Positions 29,907 through 42,189 of a stretch of 64,000 nucleotides of DNA are shown piece after piece (the stretch's first letter is position 1; each line of letters opens with the position of its first letter). The notes beneath the pieces were generated by a model. That model saw nothing but the letters and a program-made list of their open reading frames with translations. It did not search any database and was not told the DNA's origin. Both the position numbers and the translations under genes were made by a program. This stretch comes from Fibrobacter succinogenes (GTDB lineage Bacteria; Fibrobacterota; Fibrobacteria; Fibrobacterales; Fibrobacteraceae), in assembly GCA_902762795.1 (NCBI GenBank), contig CACWPM010000003.1:1-64000 (forward strand), written 5' to 3'.

Positions 29907-30044
29907 GTGTTCCTTTAAATTAAGCAATTTTTTTTGAAAGCGTATCACTTCAAAAACAAAAAGTGTTCCCAAGGTGTTCTTTTTTGCCGAAATTAAAATG
30001 GAATAAGGATTTTTTACGGGAAGTTTTCAAAAATAGGTGTTCCC
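29907..30044 (+). promoter_or_regulatory. Four GTGTTC direct repeats upstream of the TIGR02147 gene
   Basis: GTGTTCC (29907), GTGTTCCC (29963), GTGTTCT (29974) and GTGTTCCC (30037), all in the same orientation, in the 170 bp before the regulator's start. They could be binding sites of that regulator or a partner; this is inference. Confidence 0.4.
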
Positions 30045-30076
30045 AAAAAACAGAAAAAAAATTAGATTTCTATTTG

Positions 30077-30952
30077 ATGAACGTATATGCCTATTACAAT
30101 TACCGGAAGTACCTACAGGACTATTACGAGTATCGTAAGTCCGTACAGAGGTATTTCTCGTACCGGTCTTTTGCAAAGAAGGCCGGGTATTCCTCTTCTG
30201 GTCTCTACCTGGACTTGATTCGCGGTCGCAAGTCGCTTACTCCGCAGATGCTCCCGAAATTCATAGCAGCTCTTGGACTTAATGAAAGGGAAGGCCGCTA
30301 TTTCACCTTGATGGTGGACTTCACGCATGCCACAACGGCCTCTTCGAAGCAACAGATTTTTGATCAGATGTCGGCGCTCCTTCCGCGTACGATCAAGAAC
30401 CTGACCAAGAACCAGCAGGAATATTACAGCAAGTGGTATTACGTTGTCGCCCGCGAAGCTTTAGCCGTTTTAAAAATTAATGACAAGAATATTCAGGAAC
30501 TTGCGCTTTTCCTCAATCCGAAAATTTCGCTCCCGCAGGCGAAGCAGACTATCCAGCTCCTTCTCAATTTGGGACTTATAGAGCTCGGTGAAGATGGCTT
30601 CTACCATTCCGTAAACAAGGCAATTACGAATGGTAGCGAAATCGCCCCGCTTTTCGTTCATCAGTTCCAAAAGCAGATGATTGATTTGGGTAAGGATGCG
30701 CTTGATCACTACAGCACCGAACGTAGAAATGTATCTTGTATGACGATGAGCGTCTCGGCGCAGGGATTGGAACGTATAATTAGCAAGATAGACTTGTTCC
30801 GCAAGGAAATCGTGGACATCGTCCGTTCGGACGAAGGTGAATCCATGGTTTGCGAATTGAACATCCAGTTTTTCCCGCTGAGTAAGGAAAAGATAAATCT
30901 TCCGCCTGAGGCGAATGTCGATGTCGAGGAGGATGAAGATGAAGTTTGCTAA
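30077..30952 (+). CDS. TIGR02147/DUF4423-family regulator
   Basis: 291 residues. The first 75 residues form a helix-turn-helix-like segment (YRSFAKKAGYSSSGLYLDLIRGRKSLTPQML), followed by LGLNEREGRYFTLMVDF and a helical body with YYSKWYYVVARE and a conserved tail with FRKEIVDIVRSDEGESMVCELNIQFFPL. This is the TIGR02147 pattern, a paralogous family abundant in Fibrobacter. The role is presumed regulatory and is not established. The start at 30077 is chosen because the 38 upstream codons are not family-like; TAGATT lies 8 nt upstream. The lipoprotein gene overlaps the 3' end by 14 bp. Confidence 0.85.
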   Translation: MNVYAYYNYRKYLQDYYEYRKSVQRYFSYRSFAKKAGYSSSGLYLDLIRGRKSLTPQMLPKFIAALGLNEREGRYFTLMVDFTHATTASSKQQIFDQMSALLPRTIKNLTKNQQEYYSKWYYVVAREALAVLKINDKNIQELALFLNPKISLPQAKQTIQLLLNLGLIELGEDGFYHSVNKAITNGSEIAPLFVHQFQKQMIDLGKDALDHYSTERRNVSCMTMSVSAQGLERIISKIDLFRKEIVDIVRSDEGESMVCELNIQFFPLSKEKINLPPEANVDVEEDEDEVC

Positions 30953-32393: not shown

Positions 32394-32464
32394 TGAGCTA
32401 TGGTGTAACGGTAGCACAACAGATTCTGACTCTGTTTGTCTAGGTTCGAATCCTGGTAGCTCAA
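32394..32464 (+). tRNA. tRNA-Gln (anticodon CUG)
   Basis: Acceptor arms TGAGCTA (32394-32400) and TAGCTCA (32457-32463) pair perfectly, with U1-A72 as is typical for tRNA-Gln. The anticodon stem-loop ACAGA-TTCTGAC-TCTGT gives CTG, the T arm has GGTTCGAATCC, and the D arm has GGTGTAACGGTAGC. CCA is not encoded. Confidence 0.95.
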
Positions 32465-32468
32465 CTAA

Positions 32469-32499: not shown

Positions 32500-32850
32500 T
32501 TATGGGCGGTGGCGCCATCGGGGGTGTCGCGGGGTGTGCTGCGGGATGCCGGAAAACGCCGCGAAATGCCGCTGTTTGTGCGAAATTTTGAAAAAATGCG
32601 TTTTTTTACGTAAAAAAGTTGGAAAATGTGGGGATGCTTACGTAAAATTATGTATAAATTAGACAAAATTAGGGTTAAGTTGATGCTTTTTTATGTGTTT
32701 TGTTGTGTTTTGGCTCGTAAAACAGTCGTGAAAGGTCGCTAAATGCGCAAAATGTCAAAAAATATTACAGATAAAGTTGAAAAATTACGTAAAAATTGGA
32801 TGATATTGGGGTGTTTTTACGTAATTTGGGGCGTTTTCAGACGAAAAAGG
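32500..32850. promoter_or_regulatory. Noncoding stretch with two pairs of TTACGTAA palindromes
   Basis: No gene is seen here. Perfect 8-bp palindromes TTACGTAA occur at 32606, 32638, 32785 and 32817: two pairs, each 32 bp start to start, 179 bp apart. Each pair bounds a related 40-bp element (TTACGTAAAAA, TTGG, TGGGG, TTACGTAA). Looks like a protein-binding array or a diverged duplicated element. Confidence 0.7.
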
Positions 32851-32956
32851 TTTTAGGTAATAGGTGTTAGGGATTAGGTTGATTCTTGCGGCTACGTCGT
32901 TTATTATAGACGTGCGGAGCACATGATAATATTCCTATAACCTACAACCTAATTCC
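32850..32956. repeat. Phrase repeat with inverted arms upstream of the RNA methyltransferase
   Basis: Left arm TTAGGTAATAGGTGTTAGGG with GATTAGG (32852-32880); right arm CCTATAACCTACAACCTAA (32934-32952), its approximate complement; between them a GC-richer centre. Confidence 0.7.
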
Positions 32957-32962
32957 TATATT
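32957..32962 (+). promoter_or_regulatory. -10-like box before the methyltransferase gene (leaderless candidate)
   Basis: TATATT ends 6 nt before the ATG at 32969. There is no Shine-Dalgarno and no clear -35. Confidence 0.4.
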
Positions 32963-32968
32963 TGTGCC

Positions 32969-33730
32969 ATGGAATTTTTTGGTTACTTTGAAGAAGTTTA
33001 TGGCGATCGATGGCCTACGTTGCTGGAATCGCTGAAAGGCGAGGGGCGCGCAACGAAGCTCCAGTTTGCAGATTCCTTGGAGCCGTACTTTTTGGACGAG
33101 GCTTCGGTGTTTGCGGCTAAGGCTCTTGCTGTAGAACCAGGAATGGACGTGCTTGACATGTGTGCCGCTCCGGGGGGCAAGTCGCTCGTGATTGCCTCGA
33201 TGCTCAAGGGCGAGGGAACGCTGCAATGCAATGACCGTTCTCCGGACAGGCGGCTTCGCTTGCAGCATGTGCTTGAAAATTCCCTGCCGGAATCATGGCG
33301 CTCGATAATCAATGTTACCGGCTATGATGGAGTCAAGTTCGGTATGCACAAGAAGGAGTGTTACGACCGCATTTTGCTCGATGCTCCGTGCTCATCAGAT
33401 CGGCATGTGCTGAATTCTCCTTCGCATTTGGAAGTGTGGTCGGTGAAGCGTGTCAAGCGCCTGGCTGTGGAGCAAGGTTCGCTTTTGGCGTCTGCGGTGG
33501 ATGCGCTCAGGCCTGGTGGCGAACTGATTTACGGGACTTGTGCGCTTTCGCCTCTCGAAAACGATGCCGTGGTCGCGAAAATCTTGAAGAAACGCAAGAT
33601 GATGGAATTTGTTCGCATCGAGGACTTGCCGGAGGGCGCGGACCGCACTGAGCTCGGTGTGCACATTTTGCCGGACAAGGCTCATGGTTGCGGACCCATC
33701 TACTGCGCGAAGATGCGGAAGGTGTGTTAG
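32969..33730 (+). CDS. RsmB/NSUN-family RNA (cytosine-5)-methyltransferase
   Basis: 253 residues. AdoMet-binding motif DMCAAPGGKSLVIAS near 57-72, then the DAPCSSDRH motif whose Cys acts in product release, and YGTCALSPLEND, whose Cys is the usual nucleophile in this family (RsmB, RsmF, NSUN). It lacks the N-terminal NusB-like and C-terminal PUA parts of RsmB/RsmF, so the target RNA (rRNA or tRNA) is not predictable; NSUN4-like small forms exist. Start supported only by a -10-like box. Confidence 0.87.
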   Translation: MEFFGYFEEVYGDRWPTLLESLKGEGRATKLQFADSLEPYFLDEASVFAAKALAVEPGMDVLDMCAAPGGKSLVIASMLKGEGTLQCNDRSPDRRLRLQHVLENSLPESWRSIINVTGYDGVKFGMHKKECYDRILLDAPCSSDRHVLNSPSHLEVWSVKRVKRLAVEQGSLLASAVDALRPGGELIYGTCALSPLENDAVVAKILKKRKMMEFVRIEDLPEGADRTELGVHILPDKAHGCGPIYCAKMRKVC

Positions 33731-33868
33731 AGCTTAGAACTTAGAACTTAGAGCTTAGAACACTCCTTTTGCTCTAAAAGAAAATAACTAAGTTCTAAGA
33801 GCGAAGCGGGCTAAGTTCTGCCTACTAATCACTAACCACCAATCACTAACTACTTAAAATGCTATATT
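33731..33868. repeat. Phrase repeat with inverted arms (TTAGAAC type)
   Basis: Left arm AGAGCTTAGAACTTAGAAC... (33731-33762) faces right arm CTAAGTTCTAAG (33790-33801) and then CACTAACCACCAATCAC units (33835-33852). A -10-like TATATT lies near 33863 ahead of the thioredoxin gene. Confidence 0.75.
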
Positions 33869-36742: not shown

Positions 36743-37023
36743 GTATGGGATGTTTGGTTTTGTATCTTTAAAATAGTTTAATTTGGAATATTCGTGTTTT
36801 TTTTATCAGTTTTTCTGATGTAAAACTTTACAACACTTAAAATCTAAAATGTTTAATAAAATTTACATTCAAAACTTTAAATACAGAAAAAATGAAAAAG
36901 GTATATGCCGATAGCCCGAAAGTATTAGATAATGTATTATTGCTTTTTTCTTATTTATTTCTAATATTGTGCAAATTGATAATACTGTACAAAGTATTTA
37001 ATTCTAAAACGAGAAGAGACTAT

Positions 37024-40000
37024 ATGACCAGAATAAAAATAAACAAATCTTTACGTTCGCTCCGTTTGGGACTTGTGTTCCTCTTTACCCTGCTAATGTC
37101 GGCAAATTCGTGGGGATATATCTTTTATATTAACGAAAACGGAGAAAGGGAGCCCGTATCTCTTTTTAATTATCTCTCAAAAGACATTGACCATATGACG
37201 CTTATGCAGAATAACGGTATTTATGTGGTAAATGACACCGTAGATCTGGGTGATAAGAATATCGGGTTCGAGGGTCGTATCACGATTATTTTAATGGATG
37301 GAGCTTATTTAAACTGCAACAAATTATATTATAAAAAAGATTTAGGACTTTCAGATGTTCCTTCTATATCCATTTTCGTAGGATCAACTAGCTACTATAA
37401 ACCCATTTTAGGTACGGGTGTATTAAATGTCAAAAATGGTATTGACCCTACTACAGCATCTAATGTCTCTATAGCTATTTATGGCGGTCACGTCACAACG
37501 GATTATAATAATCCTAAAAACGATAGTCATAAAGATAATGTACGCATAGATGTTCAAAATTTTGAATTTCATGGTGGTAATGTCGATGTAGAAGAACTTG
37601 AAGCAAAAACGATTACGCTTGGTTGGAAAAATCCCACGGATTCTTTTAGAGTGCGCAATTTTATCAGGATGCGCGAAAGCTTCACCATAGAGAACGATTT
37701 ATACGTCAAGGATGAAAACGGCAAATTTTACAGCGGCCAATTATCTGTTGACAATATTTATAGCATCCTAGACAAAACACTTGTGCCCGCAAAGACTCCT
37801 TTCTTCTACATGGACGAAAACGGAGTAGAGCGAGGTGTTGAGGATTATGTCATCCTCGATACACTTTTACCGAAAGTTCAGAAGGATCCTTATTCCAATG
37901 ATCGTTTCGTGTATTTGCCGAGTGGCTGGTATGTAGTGAACGATCGTGTAACTTTTGAGGGTCAAATTTACTTTAGGAAAGACGAAGGCGATGCTAACCT
38001 TATCATTGCGGATAATGCCGAATTAAACGTTGTGGATTATGAAAAGGATATTCTCTTCGGTATAAGCGGCCAAGGAAACTTGAATGTTTATGGTCAGAAG
38101 AATGGCTCTGGAAAATTGAATGTTTATAGTCAGAAGAGTACCTCTCCATACGTACAAGGTGATTTAAGTGCAGGAAGAAATAAAGATCTTGTTATAAACG
38201 GAATTTCCGTGAAAGTAGGTGGTCAATTGTTTGCTAGTAATGGTCGTGTTAAATTAAACGGCGGTTCTTATGATGTTAATACAGTTTTTGCTGATTTAAT
38301 CATTTTGGATTGGCGTAAAACTACCGATTCCATTAAGGTTGAAAAATTTAGCTTAGGTAATTTTCATCAACCGGGGAAGTTTCTTCAAATAGCCGAAGGC
38401 AAAGCCTTTGGAGATGAAGACGGCAAAGTTTATACCGGTAAAGTCTATTCGACGGAAACCGTATATGATGAGAATTGGAAAAAGGATGAATATTTAAGCC
38501 CGCTGAACGGCAAGACTCTTAAGCCGTGCTATGCGGTTACATTCCAAGCGCTGAACGGCACGGAACCTGTGGTTGCTGCCACGACCTTCGACGAACAAGG
38601 CTATGCCAACATTGCTGAGCCGCCGGCTCCAACCCGCAACGGATCCAAGTTTTATCACTGGTCCACCACTGAAGATGGCACAAGGGGATATTTTTTCAAT
38701 ATCCCTGTCACTGAAAATATGACCCTCTTTGCCCAATGGAACAAAGACAGGCTTGAATATATTGACGAAAATGGTCAATCTCAATCTCTAAATAGTTATA
38801 CCGTGCTCACAAGCGACCTTATCAAAGCCAACGAAGAAGAAGGCGTCGTCAACCTCCCGGGCGCTTGGTATGTGGTGCATAATACTTTCTACGATAGCGT
38901 AGACGTTTATGTTGAGAATTACACGCTCTCGTTCAATGGGGATGCGCATATCATCCTTGCGGATGGTGCAGAAATGAAACTGGATCCATTTGATAGAATG
39001 TTAATCGAAGCCAAAGGCAATTTGTCCATTTACGGGCAGAAGCTTGGTACGGGTAAGCTCACGGCTATTGATTCGACTGCTGATAATAGTGCAATTGTGG
39101 TGAAAGGTAAGAACTTTAACATTAACGGAGGAAATATAACCGTAAGAAACAGTTTTATAACTGGGCGTACTGCAGTAACATCCAACACAGTCAATATCAA
39201 CGGTGGTGTCGTGAATATTTCCTCTAATAACGAATATGCTTTTGATCCTGTAAATGCAATCGAGGCCAAAGAACTTAACTTAAATTCGTATCGCTTAGAC
39301 GATCGCTTTACTATTGGTCTCACCGGTGCCAACGTCAATGTCGCGAGTGGCAAGTCCTTCAAGGACGACGCGAATGAAATTTATAGCGGCACTCTCGATG
39401 CTAAGCAGATTGAAACTCTCGTTGACCGGACGCTGATCCCCGCTATAGAGTTCCCAAGCAATATTGCTGTTGCCGATATTCCCGATATGACCTATGTCGG
39501 TGATTCGATTTGCCCGCAACCCGCTGTGCGCATCGGCAATAGTCAGCTTACGCTTGACGAAGACTACATTGTTGTATGCGAAGATAACTTGAATGTTGGT
39601 ACCGCTAAACTAACTGTTCAGGGCGCAGGAAATTATTATGGCGAAGTTGAGAAAACGTTTAATATCGTGAAGGCTCCGCTTACGATTAAGGCCAAAGATA
39701 CTACGATTGTTTATGGTTCTGATGCTCCAGAAGCATTGACAATCGTTGGCCTTGTCGGTGCAGATACTTTAAAGGAATTGTCCGAAATTCTCAATGGTAC
39801 GTTATCTTATGATTGTATCTATACGGCTGGGGACACCGTTTCTAGTTACACAATTATGTTAAGTGGTAATGTGACTGCCGACAACTACGAAATCGAATTG
39901 ATGGAAGGTGTGTTTACGGTTGAACCGAAGGAAGTTTCCATCGTTTGGGATAAGCAGACTACGTTTACTTACGATGGCAAAGAACATGCTCCTACTGCAA

Positions 40001-42189
40001 CACTGGAAGGCCTTTTTGGAAGAGACAGGTGTGACCTCACGCTGTTTGGTGCTAAGGTAAATGTCGGCGAGTATACAGCTTCGGTGATAGATTTGAGCAA
40101 CTCTAACTACAAGTTGCCAGAAACAGGCTTGGACCAAGCCTTCGAAATCACAAAGGCTCCGCTCACGGTTACGGCCTTCAACGATACGATTGTCTATGGC
40201 GATGAACCGTCTAACGCCGGAGTCAAATTCAGTGGCTTTGTCAATGGAGAAAACGAAAAGTCCTTGAACGGCACTCTCGTTTATAGCAACGAATACAAGC
40301 AATATGGCAATGTCGGTGAATACGCGATTTCGCCGAGCGGTCTCTCTGCCGACAACTACGAAATCAATTTCATCGATGGCAAGTTGACCGTTGAACCGAA
40401 GTATGTTGCTGTTACATGGGATAAGCAAAATACGTTTACTTACGATGGTTCAGAACATGCTCCGACAGCAACGCTGGAAGGTGTTTTGGAAAGCGACAAG
40501 TGCGGTTTCACCATTGCTGGTGCTGCGGTAAATGCGGGCAAGTACACGGCTTCGGTGACTGAATTGGACAATGAAAACTACAAGTTGCCGGAAACTGCCG
40601 CCAAGCAGGATTTTGAAATTACCAAGGCTTCGCTCACGGTTGTGGCCAAGAACGAAACAATGGTTTATGGTGATGAACCGTCTAACGCGGGTGTTGAATT
40701 CAGTGGCTTTATCGGTGAAGATAATGAAAAGTCCTTGAATGGCGCGCTTGTCTATAGTTACAATTACAAGCAGTATGACAACATCGGTGAATACACCATT
40801 ACTCCGAGTGGCCTGACTTCTGACAATTATGAAATTACTTTCGTTGATGGCATGTTGACGGTGGAACCGAAGGAAGCCACTATTATATGGGGCGAACAGA
40901 CTTTGTTTGTTTACGATGGTGCAGAACATATCCCGTCTGTAAAATCGTTAGAAGGTGTCGTAAATGGTGAAACGTGTTCCGCTGTAGTGGAAGGTGCCGC
41001 GGTAAATGTAGGCAAGTACACCGCTAAGGTAACGGACTTGAGCGACAAAAATTACAAATTGCCGAAAAATGGTGTTGAACAAGTTTTCGAAATTGTTGCG
41101 CCGAATTTCGTTGTCGAAGATATTCCTGTCCAGGCCTACACGGGCAATTCCGTTTGCCCCGATGTCGTTGTGAGGGTCGGTCAAAAGACGCTTGAAGCAA
41201 AGTTGGACTATATTGTGGAATGCTTTGAAAATGTGGAAAAATCTTCGACTGCTCCTTATGCAAAAATTACTGGCATGGGTAAGTATGCTGGTGTCGTCGA
41301 AAAGCACTTTGCCATCCTCGAAAGAACCGCCGATTACGCCGCAGTCGGAATTTTCAAGGACGAAAACGGACATTCGATTGCTGCCATCGATGGAAATTTC
41401 GGTGAAGACGGATCCGTGAATATTGACGAAGAAATTACGGTCGATTCTGTTATGTTTGAACGTTGCTTCTCGAAAGGCTCTCGCTCTACAATTGTCTTGC
41501 CGTTCAGCGTAAGCACGAGTCAAATCAAGGGGTTGAAACAAGTACTTGGATTCAGCAAAATCGTGGTGGAAAACGGTCAAAAGGCGGTCGGCATGCATAT
41601 CGTCTGGGAAAACACGTCGTCTGAACATGTGACGTTAAACGCTTACACTCCGTATATAGTACTGATGGATGGCGAAAAGTTCGATATCGGCGGTGCCGTG
41701 ACGCTCGAAGTCACGAAGGAAGTTGTTGACGCCGGTTCCGAAGATAATTCGGAGTGGGAATTCCGTGGAAGCTTAACTTACAAGAAATGGGAAGAAAATG
41801 ACCCGGAACTGGGTAGAATTTACGGATTTGCAGGAAACGCCGACGATGAGCACGGTATAGAAGTGGGCGATTTCGTCAAGGTTGCCGCAGGTGCGTGGAT
41901 TGCCCCGATGCGTGCTTACCTTGTCAAGAAGCCTTCTGCTTCGGGAATTCGTGCTAACGGCGCCCGTATCGCAAAAGCTGCTGCAAATTCTGAATTGCAG
42001 GACCGCATGTCCATCGTGATTATCAAGAACGACGAAAATGGGGAGAATAACGAACAAACGACCGTTATTGGACAGTTCAATACCCGCACAGCTCCGTACC
42101 GTATGACCTTTATGCCACGTACCTATGACATCAAGGGACGTAACGTGGGTGAAGGGAAGAAAGCGAAGGGTGTGTACTTGAAAAAGTAA
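37024..42189 (+). CDS. Giant surface protein with MBG/YDG repeats and C-terminal sorting signal
   Basis: 1721 residues. Signal peptide (LGLVFLFTLLMSANSWGY), then pectin-lyase-like beta strands about 60-500 with recurring IYGQK and GKLTV-type phrases. A Listeria-Bacteroides repeat (VTFQALNGTEPVV...LFAQWNK) lies about 505-575, more beta-helix follows, and from about 810 alternating MBG and YDG-type Ig-like repeats carry the text KAPLTVTAFNDTIVYGDE and TFTYDGKEHAPTATLEG several times. The end, TYDIKGRNVGEGKKAKGVYL, looks like a type IX secretion CTD. Secreted or surface-bound adhesin-like. Start chosen at 37024 with GAGAAGAG upstream, not the AT-rich upstream frame at 36892. Confidence 0.85.
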   Translation: MTRIKINKSLRSLRLGLVFLFTLLMSANSWGYIFYINENGEREPVSLFNYLSKDIDHMTLMQNNGIYVVNDTVDLGDKNIGFEGRITIILMDGAYLNCNKLYYKKDLGLSDVPSISIFVGSTSYYKPILGTGVLNVKNGIDPTTASNVSIAIYGGHVTTDYNNPKNDSHKDNVRIDVQNFEFHGGNVDVEELEAKTITLGWKNPTDSFRVRNFIRMRESFTIENDLYVKDENGKFYSGQLSVDNIYSILDKTLVPAKTPFFYMDENGVERGVEDYVILDTLLPKVQKDPYSNDRFVYLPSGWYVVNDRVTFEGQIYFRKDEGDANLIIADNAELNVVDYEKDILFGISGQGNLNVYGQKNGSGKLNVYSQKSTSPYVQGDLSAGRNKDLVINGISVKVGGQLFASNGRVKLNGGSYDVNTVFADLIILDWRKTTDSIKVEKFSLGNFHQPGKFLQIAEGKAFGDEDGKVYTGKVYSTETVYDENWKKDEYLSPLNGKTLKPCYAVTFQALNGTEPVVAATTFDEQGYANIAEPPAPTRNGSKFYHWSTTEDGTRGYFFNIPVTENMTLFAQWNKDRLEYIDENGQSQSLNSYTVLTSDLIKANEEEGVVNLPGAWYVVHNTFYDSVDVYVENYTLSFNGDAHIILADGAEMKLDPFDRMLIEAKGNLSIYGQKLGTGKLTAIDSTADNSAIVVKGKNFNINGGNITVRNSFITGRTAVTSNTVNINGGVVNISSNNEYAFDPVNAIEAKELNLNSYRLDDRFTIGLTGANVNVASGKSFKDDANEIYSGTLDAKQIETLVDRTLIPAIEFPSNIAVADIPDMTYVGDSICPQPAVRIGNSQLTLDEDYIVVCEDNLNVGTAKLTVQGAGNYYGEVEKTFNIVKAPLTIKAKDTTIVYGSDAPEALTIVGLVGADTLKELSEILNGTLSYDCIYTAGDTVSSYTIMLSGNVTADNYEIELMEGVFTVEPKEVSIVWDKQTTFTYDGKEHAPTATLEGLFGRDRCDLTLFGAKVNVGEYTASVIDLSNSNYKLPETGLDQAFEITKAPLTVTAFNDTIVYGDEPSNAGVKFSGFVNGENEKSLNGTLVYSNEYKQYGNVGEYAISPSGLSADNYEINFIDGKLTVEPKYVAVTWDKQNTFTYDGSEHAPTATLEGVLESDKCGFTIAGAAVNAGKYTASVTELDNENYKLPETAAKQDFEITKASLTVVAKNETMVYGDEPSNAGVEFSGFIGEDNEKSLNGALVYSYNYKQYDNIGEYTITPSGLTSDNYEITFVDGMLTVEPKEATIIWGEQTLFVYDGAEHIPSVKSLEGVVNGETCSAVVEGAAVNVGKYTAKVTDLSDKNYKLPKNGVEQVFEIVAPNFVVEDIPVQAYTGNSVCPDVVVRVGQKTLEAKLDYIVECFENVEKSSTAPYAKITGMGKYAGVVEKHFAILERTADYAAVGIFKDENGHSIAAIDGNFGEDGSVNIDEEITVDSVMFERCFSKGSRSTIVLPFSVSTSQIKGLKQVLGFSKIVVENGQKAVGMHIVWENTSSEHVTLNAYTPYIVLMDGEKFDIGGAVTLEVTKEVVDAGSEDNSEWEFRGSLTYKKWEENDPELGRIYGFAGNADDEHGIEVGDFVKVAAGAWIAPMRAYLVKKPSASGIRANGARIAKAAANSELQDRMSIVIIKNDENGENNEQTTVIGQFNTRTAPYRMTFMPRTYDIKGRNVGEGKKAKGVYLKK

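Follow-up and report, generated by a model that had tools for sequence, protein, structure and literature searches.

Why should a perfect 8-bp palindrome occur four times, in two pairs of identical spacing, in the short gap between a tRNA gene and an RNA methyltransferase gene of Fibrobacter? The first-pass annotation of this stretch of DNA (64,000 nt, here called the window) offered two readings, a cooperative protein-binding site or diverged copies of one element. Our analysis indicates that the four palindromes belong to one copy of a dispersed module, and that this module is probably recognised in trans by a family of proteins that have a PD-(D/E)XK-like nuclease domain, ORF276 being the module's own member. 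All evidence is computational and comes chiefly from MAGs; the assembly that contains the window is designated G000.

Results

The four-palindrome module

The window contains exactly four copies of TTACGTAA, at the starts that had been annotated (Table 1). The mean in shuffled windows was 0.81, and four or more copies occurred in 2 of 100 shuffles. Start-to-start spacing is 32 bp in both pairs and 179 bp from pair to pair, and the module's neighbours are, as claimed, tRNA-Gln(CTG) (32394-32465) and an RsmB/F-type methyltransferase gene (32969-33730). Each pair bounds a 40-bp unit, TTACGTAAAAAAGTTGGAAAATGTGGGGATGCTTACGTAA on the left and TTACGTAAAAATTGGATGATATTGGGGTGTTTTTACGTAA on the right. 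The TTGG and TGGGG said to be shared by these units are present in both, but the spacers of other copies do not keep them, and because they are absent from that spacer profile the likeness is incidental. The first-pass annotation overlooked the inner and outer flanking motifs and the attached gene family. It also missed that the module is independent of the tRNA or methyltransferase.

Table 1. Anatomy of the module, in positions of the window.
Feature	Position	Strand	Basis or remark
Left outer flank AAATTTTGAAAAAATGCGTTTTT	32583..32605	+	Inverted counterpart of right outer flank; 68-module profile
Half-site 1, TTACGTAA, outer, left pair	32606..32613	.	Exact match
Left-pair spacer, 24 bp, A-tract at 5' end	32614..32637	+	23-25 bp in profiled copies
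Half-site 2, TTACGTAA, inner, left pair	32638..32645	.	Exact match
Left-pair inner motif AATTATGTATAAATTAG (family consensus AATTNNNTACAAANTAA)	32646..32662	+	Profile
Core	32663..32764	.	Sequence unconserved between copies; length in helical turns alone kept
Right-pair inner motif ATTACAGATAAAGTTGAAAA (family TTACANACAANNTNAAAATT)	32765..32784	+	Profile and window-locus comparison
Half-site 3, TTACGTAA, inner, right pair	32785..32792	.	Exact match
Right-pair spacer, 24 bp	32793..32816	+	Profile
Half-site 4, TTACGTAA, outer, right pair	32817..32824	.	Exact match
Right outer flank TTTGGGGCGTTTTCAGACGAAAAAGGTTTTA	32825..32855	+	Profile

Several other features of the window were recorded. A different element follows directly after the module (32856-32960) and consists of a TTAGG-type tract, GCGGCTACGTCG...GTGCGGAGCACATGATAAT, and then the near reverse complement CCTATAACCTACAACCTAATTCC; it is also at the same place in G006, which has no module. 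Short degenerate repeats, of AACTTAG and CTAATCAC type, form intergenic tracts at 33731-33860, and similar tracts are found in the same gap of G001 (L018). The protein encoded at 36892-42189 (1765 aa) looks secreted and has a List_Bact repeat in addition to three MBG_2 domains. A DUF4423 protein is encoded at 29963-30952, and proteins of similar appearance adjoin two other modules (L052 5310-6323, L053 5458-6327).

Copies in the genome and in the genus

The objection that TTACGTAA might be no more frequent than chance fails, since the whole assembly G000 has 24 exact pairs, chiefly as double pairs 179-211 bp apart, and the reversed control pattern gave 0. With base 7 left free (TTACGTNA-N23..25-TNACGTAA), relaxed pairs numbered 41 in G000, 38 in G001, 39 in G062, 20 in G063 and 19 in G004, against 0 for the control. 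They were few in the near relatives G014 (5), G006 (2) and G019 (2), and the other 33 Fibrobacter genomes scanned had 0. Several seemingly incomplete copies are complete once TTACGTCA or TTACGTGA is allowed.

A profile of 68 modules gives a common order: an outer flank ending in TTTT, TTACGTNA, an AAA...TTT spacer of 23-25 bp, TNACGTAA, the inner motif AATTNNNTACAAANTAA, the core, a second inner motif, the second pair and the inverted outer flank. In these 68 modules the TTTT that ends both outer flanks before TTACGT is conserved. Cores at different loci are unrelated in sequence and put 139-171 bp between the pairs. These comparisons show one module type, with four putative half-sites, at about 20 intergenic loci of the genome, and the 15 modules examined first lie in tandem, convergent and divergent gaps alike. 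Seventeen of the 20 loci of G000 have a counterpart in at least one other genome (15 of them in G062, 10 in G001), which resembles a kept site rather than active mobility. At the window locus, where a check for conserved pairs and spacing had been proposed, both are present in three other genomes with spacing shifted by 0, about 1 or about 20 bp (pair-to-pair distance 179 bp in G000, 178 in G001, 179 in G062 and 199 in G004). The left-pair inner motif is conserved there in G001, G004 and G062. In G006, G014 and G019 the same gap is without pairs. The proposed refuting condition, loss of pairs or spacing in close relatives, thus fails wherever the element exists.

Modules of the Fibrobacter type were also seen at extreme contig ends in bins of other phyla, L117 (Bacteroidia RUG13471) and L115 (Treponema UBA4326). 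The L117 contig is likely chimeric or misbinned, because its flank clusters with Fibrobacter loci.

Base 7 of the half-sites differs by genome. It is mostly G in G001 (65 of the 72 half-sites listed), C in G004 (27 of 38) and A in G000 (59 of 76). All 10 half-sites of G014 have G, and G062 is mixed, the two arms differing there at this variable base in 17 of 39 pairs. That base 7 has shifted genome-wide, though most loci are shared, suggests that the sites have one trans-acting reader in common and that its preference changed.

Helical phase of the sites

Module lengths cluster near 218, 229, 239 and 250 bp. In 77 comparisons of orthologous modules the spacing differed by 0-2.5, 9-12.5 or 20-22.5 bp, and differences of 3-8.5 or 13-19.5 bp did not occur. 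Arrays at family genes and in other phyla, described below, have distances of, for example, 53, 63, 73, 85, 95, 106, 137, 147, 168 and 192 bp. For all arrays the Rayleigh R at 10.5 bp was 0.81 with a phase near 0 (null 95%, 0.37), and an independent set of TTACGTACT pairs gave R = 0.86. Centre-to-centre distances cluster at whole multiples of about 10.5 bp, which places the sites on the same face of the duplex, apparently under selection to stay so. Of the two readings offered at first, diverged copies of one element is borne out by the recurrence of the module, and a cooperative protein-binding site is supported by a geometry that would form a same-face platform with conserved spacing.

ORF276 and its paralogues

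A gene of 276 aa, ORF276, lies 91 kb past the module on the same contig, outside the window (G000:C3:124177-125004), with rnd and trpS as its neighbours. Two modules in the same orientation flank it, one per side, and this arrangement is repeated in G004, G062 and G063. At the same place G001 has a solo module and no ORF, and G014 and G019 have neither, only a short gap. In a horse-gut Fibrobacter (L159) an ORF of 46% identity, located beside rnd, adjoins a module. The state of G001, one module where relatives have module-ORF-module, and the clean empty sites agree with whole units being gained or lost. Close ORF276 homologues occur in four genomes, which have 19-41 pairs, and among the other 37 only G001 has more than 5. 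In G001, an assembly about 94% complete, 19 modules are kept and no close ORF276 homologue was found.

ORF276 has paralogues in genomes without TTACGTNA modules, and the gene could have been a bystander for that reason. This reading was dropped because most of the paralogues carry a flanking word of their own. At least two exact inverted 8-mer pairs were found at 21 of 30 family genes and at 1 of 30 control loci, the single positive control being the window module itself; no dinucleotide shuffle reached two pairs, and the remaining 9 of the 30 members in this main test set had fewer than two. The words of other members include TTACGGG, ATGCTACY, GGGGCGTAT, GGGGCATAT, CGTACCTAT, ATAGGACT, TGTGACT, GTGGGACC and more. 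Every word again makes phased inverted pairs of similar length, and the neighbour genes differ. Most other family genes are thus shown to be flanked by putative site arrays that keep the geometry and change the word, and the words sort with the protein tree, which groups members into TTACG, ATGCTAC and GGGGCRTAT/GTACCTAT-type clades. Of the five other family members of G000, four were examined; each has one or more cognate inverted pairs, and three of them (TTACGTACT, GTACCTAT and GCGGTGAAAT) have at least two. Arrays are likewise present at two family members of G001. Several orthogonal site sets occur together in one genome.

Dispersed pairs accompany the genes. The TTACGTACT member is present in G000, G001 and G062 as orthologues that are 75-77% identical and have arrays on both sides, and these three genomes hold 38, 18 and 58 TTACGTACT pairs; G024 has 1 and the 37 remaining genomes 0. 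The three genomes that carry the GGGCGTAT member have 14, 11 and 6 of its pairs; two further genomes have 4 and 3, and 36 have 0. For the three members tested genome-wide, dispersed pairs (6-58) are almost confined to gene-bearing genomes, counts that come from phylogenetically related genomes and hence from non-independent samples. Many dispersed copies of a presumed word are thus shown to go with the matching gene, the exception being G001 for ORF276.

The family protein

No entry of Pfam or NCBIfam fits the family protein. A transposase match was absent from Pfam and PHROGs, and the lone one in NCBIfam was weak (IS630, E 0.09). PADLOC PDC-S68 is matched at its C-terminus by the final 120 residues (E=7e-24), a match shared by all 28 members, and no PADLOC system is matched by the whole protein. 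Residues E168, D204, E219, H220 and K236 do not vary among the 28 members.

An AlphaFold2 model built from three sequences is weak (mean pLDDT 61.5). In its C-terminal region the secondary-structure elements follow one another as alpha-beta-beta-beta-alpha-beta, as they do in PD-(D/E)XK nucleases. The best structural match of this region is the catalytic domain of I-Bth0305I (Z 8.9, rmsd 2.5 A, 89 residues), followed by Bax1, Vsr (Z 7.5), VRR-Nuc and TnsA. Foldseek with the model returned nothing below E 0.001, and a sequence search found no solved homologues. In this model of modest confidence the core order, and the acidic residues in helix 1 and strands 2/3, are those of the Vsr/EDxHD-like branch of PD-(D/E)XK. 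We therefore assign the C-terminus, at low confidence, to a PD-(D/E)XK-like nuclease domain. The N-terminal part of about 150 residues is helical in the model, lies beyond the reach of the PDC-S68 match and may bind DNA.

Distribution beyond Fibrobacter

Besides Fibrobacter MAGs, a scan of GTDB contigs for the four-site pattern found arrays in MAGs that bear the labels Butyrivibrio, Treponema and Clostridiales. The Butyrivibrio MAG has a TTACGTGA array immediately upstream of a family member. The profile of the protein family matched in 35 of 80 genomes of the bacterial family to which that MAG belongs, Lachnospiraceae, a few of these matches being weak or partial. At least two inverted pairs were present at 9 of 30 Lachnospiraceae loci and fewer than two at 21, several of which are truncated by the end of a contig. 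In Lachnospiraceae many family genes are about 1 kb or less from such an end (L212-L217, L223-L227), as if arrays break assemblies.

Family matches number 9 in the Treponema MAG and 10 in the Clostridiales MAG, and some of them have arrays, for example CCCACTTA repeated seven times at 85-bp steps. Five TTACGTGA arrays with periods of 72-73, 83, 94 and 104 bp occur in G066, a Treponema MAG (L175-L179), by glyA and other genes. No family gene was found within the flanks examined around them, and G066's own family members carry words other than TTACGTGA.

In IMG/VR neither the module nor a relative of the ORF276 protein was found, and plasmid and phage collections gave few and distant matches to the family protein, mostly C-terminal. 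These results speak against a viral origin.

Discussion

The module is best explained as a cognate site for its own family member, and we infer that the family acts as a trans-acting, nuclease-like protein with cognate binding platforms, through binding, cleavage and movement. Protomers would bind the half-sites, and two protomers would cover each 40-bp pair. The two pairs might then join across the core as a loop. The nuclease domain could act at or near these complexes, so that sites are spread, repaired or maintained. Gene and dispersed sites together would form a system with the logic of RAYT/REP and an unrelated enzyme. Most sites are at stable orthologous loci, which implies that present movement is slow and makes a host function such as chromosome organisation possible.

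In the RAYT (TnpA-REP)/REP-BIME 'REPtrons', a gene flanked by cognate palindromes coexists with many dispersed intergenic copies, protein and word co-evolve, and copy number is tied to gene presence (PMC2817692, PMC8266576). Here too, cognate palindromes flank the gene and are dispersed between genes, and their copy number tracks the gene except in G001 for ORF276. The enzymes differ, since RAYT is an IS200/IS605-type HUH tyrosine transposase whereas the family described here has a PD-(D/E)XK-like domain and falls outside that class. REP elements are stem-loops preceded by a short motif such as GTAG and reach hundreds of copies; here arm pairs stand 32 bp apart on duplex DNA at whole turns and number in the tens. 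The arm mismatches in G062 and the duplex phasing speak indirectly against recognition of a single-strand hairpin as in RAYT/REP. A search of open-access literature found RAYT/REP work and nothing on this family.

The C-terminal nuclease fold is likely the same as that of EDxHD/Vsr-type endonucleases, which include the homing endonuclease I-Bth0305I. A homing endonuclease has its target once per genome, and its gene lies within, and is copied into, that single cleavage site. Here there is no intron, intein or interrupted gene, and the sites are recurrent, with 38-41 pairs per genome in the richest genomes, nearly all without the gene. PDC-S68 candidate defence proteins have a homologous C-terminal domain of 120 residues in about 1,200, whereas the present family has the same domain after its helical N-terminus of about 150 residues. 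The copies do not fit MITEs or other non-autonomous transposons, which are near-identical over their full length, as they share motifs and lengths but not cores. Their outer flanks are inverted, but the empty sites inspected showed no recognisable target duplication. Helical phase also matters for regulators of the NrdR or Lrp/AsnC type, whose sites are separated by about three turns (31-32 bp). The present sites differ from theirs in the word and do not sit at regulated promoters, and the protein linked to them has a nuclease fold.

The main rival is a host role in chromosome organisation, and we consider it rather unlikely. According to this explanation the host keeps the sites as organising or regulatory nodes that are wrapped or looped by the family, its nuclease fold turned into a structural or regulatory part, or by another DNA-bending protein. 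The stability of 17 of 20 sites at orthologous intergenic loci across divergent genomes agrees with such a role, as do whole-turn spacing held while the core diverges, conservation of phased A-tracts and an additional inner motif, and flanking genes in every orientation. However, the catalytic-site residues are invariant in all 28 members, close relatives live without the set or nearly so (G014, G006 and G019, with 5, 2 and 2 pairs), and one genome can hold several orthogonal site sets.

It is improbable that the family is a defence or addiction system, in which the genome's own sites restrain the nuclease or mark self, and DNA that has no such sites or is unbound by them is attacked. Profile comparison places the nuclease domain nearest to the C-terminal parts of candidate defence proteins (PDC-S68, HEAT_CxxC_PDDEXK), and a patchy distribution with a specificity that changes between genomes would suit defence. 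However, no companion methylase or immunity gene stands by ORF276, where rnd and trpS are found instead, and the whole protein matches no PADLOC system. No defence target is in sight either, because of the results from IMG/VR and from the plasmid and phage collections.

We give still less credence to the inverted pairs as RNA or single-strand DNA hairpins, that is REP-like stem-loops or guide-type arrays. Their arms of 8-12 nt are complementary, and the second pair as DNA folds better than shuffles (z -4.8), but the module as RNA does no better than shuffles (z -0.34), the arm difference in 17 of 39 G062 pairs would break a base pair, and helical phase kept over 50-240 bp belongs to duplex DNA. 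A CRISPR or guide-RNA array is likewise disfavoured by the phasing and the mismatched arms, and Rfam has no family for the module. Least credible is that the module serves the adjacent methyltransferase or tRNA-Gln gene as an ordinary operator or promoter, for although it stands 145 bp before the methyltransferase gene, the placement of the copies between convergent genes and by unrelated genes refutes this as a general explanation, the module is missing from the same gap in G006, G014 and G019, and the pattern is nowhere in most members of the genus.

Our preferred explanation thus remains a nuclease-like family that recognises its cognate modules in trans. With less assurance, we also favour the view that this is a cross-phylum class of nuclease-plus-sites systems, several of them mutually orthogonal in one genome, in which dispersed, helically phased duplex sites persist and are re-specified together with the protein, and that it was invented independently of RAYT/REP. 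An unnamed family, present in nearly half of the sampled Lachnospiraceae genomes and in many Fibrobacter, is tied to a readable DNA code that consists of a member-specific word of 7-9 bp and whole-turn spacing. Dozens of natural protein and word pairs make specificity, looping and co-evolution directly testable, and the family could supply a set of orthogonal DNA-binding proteins. It would be a second, independent invention, beside RAYT/REP, of intergenic repeat families in bacteria.
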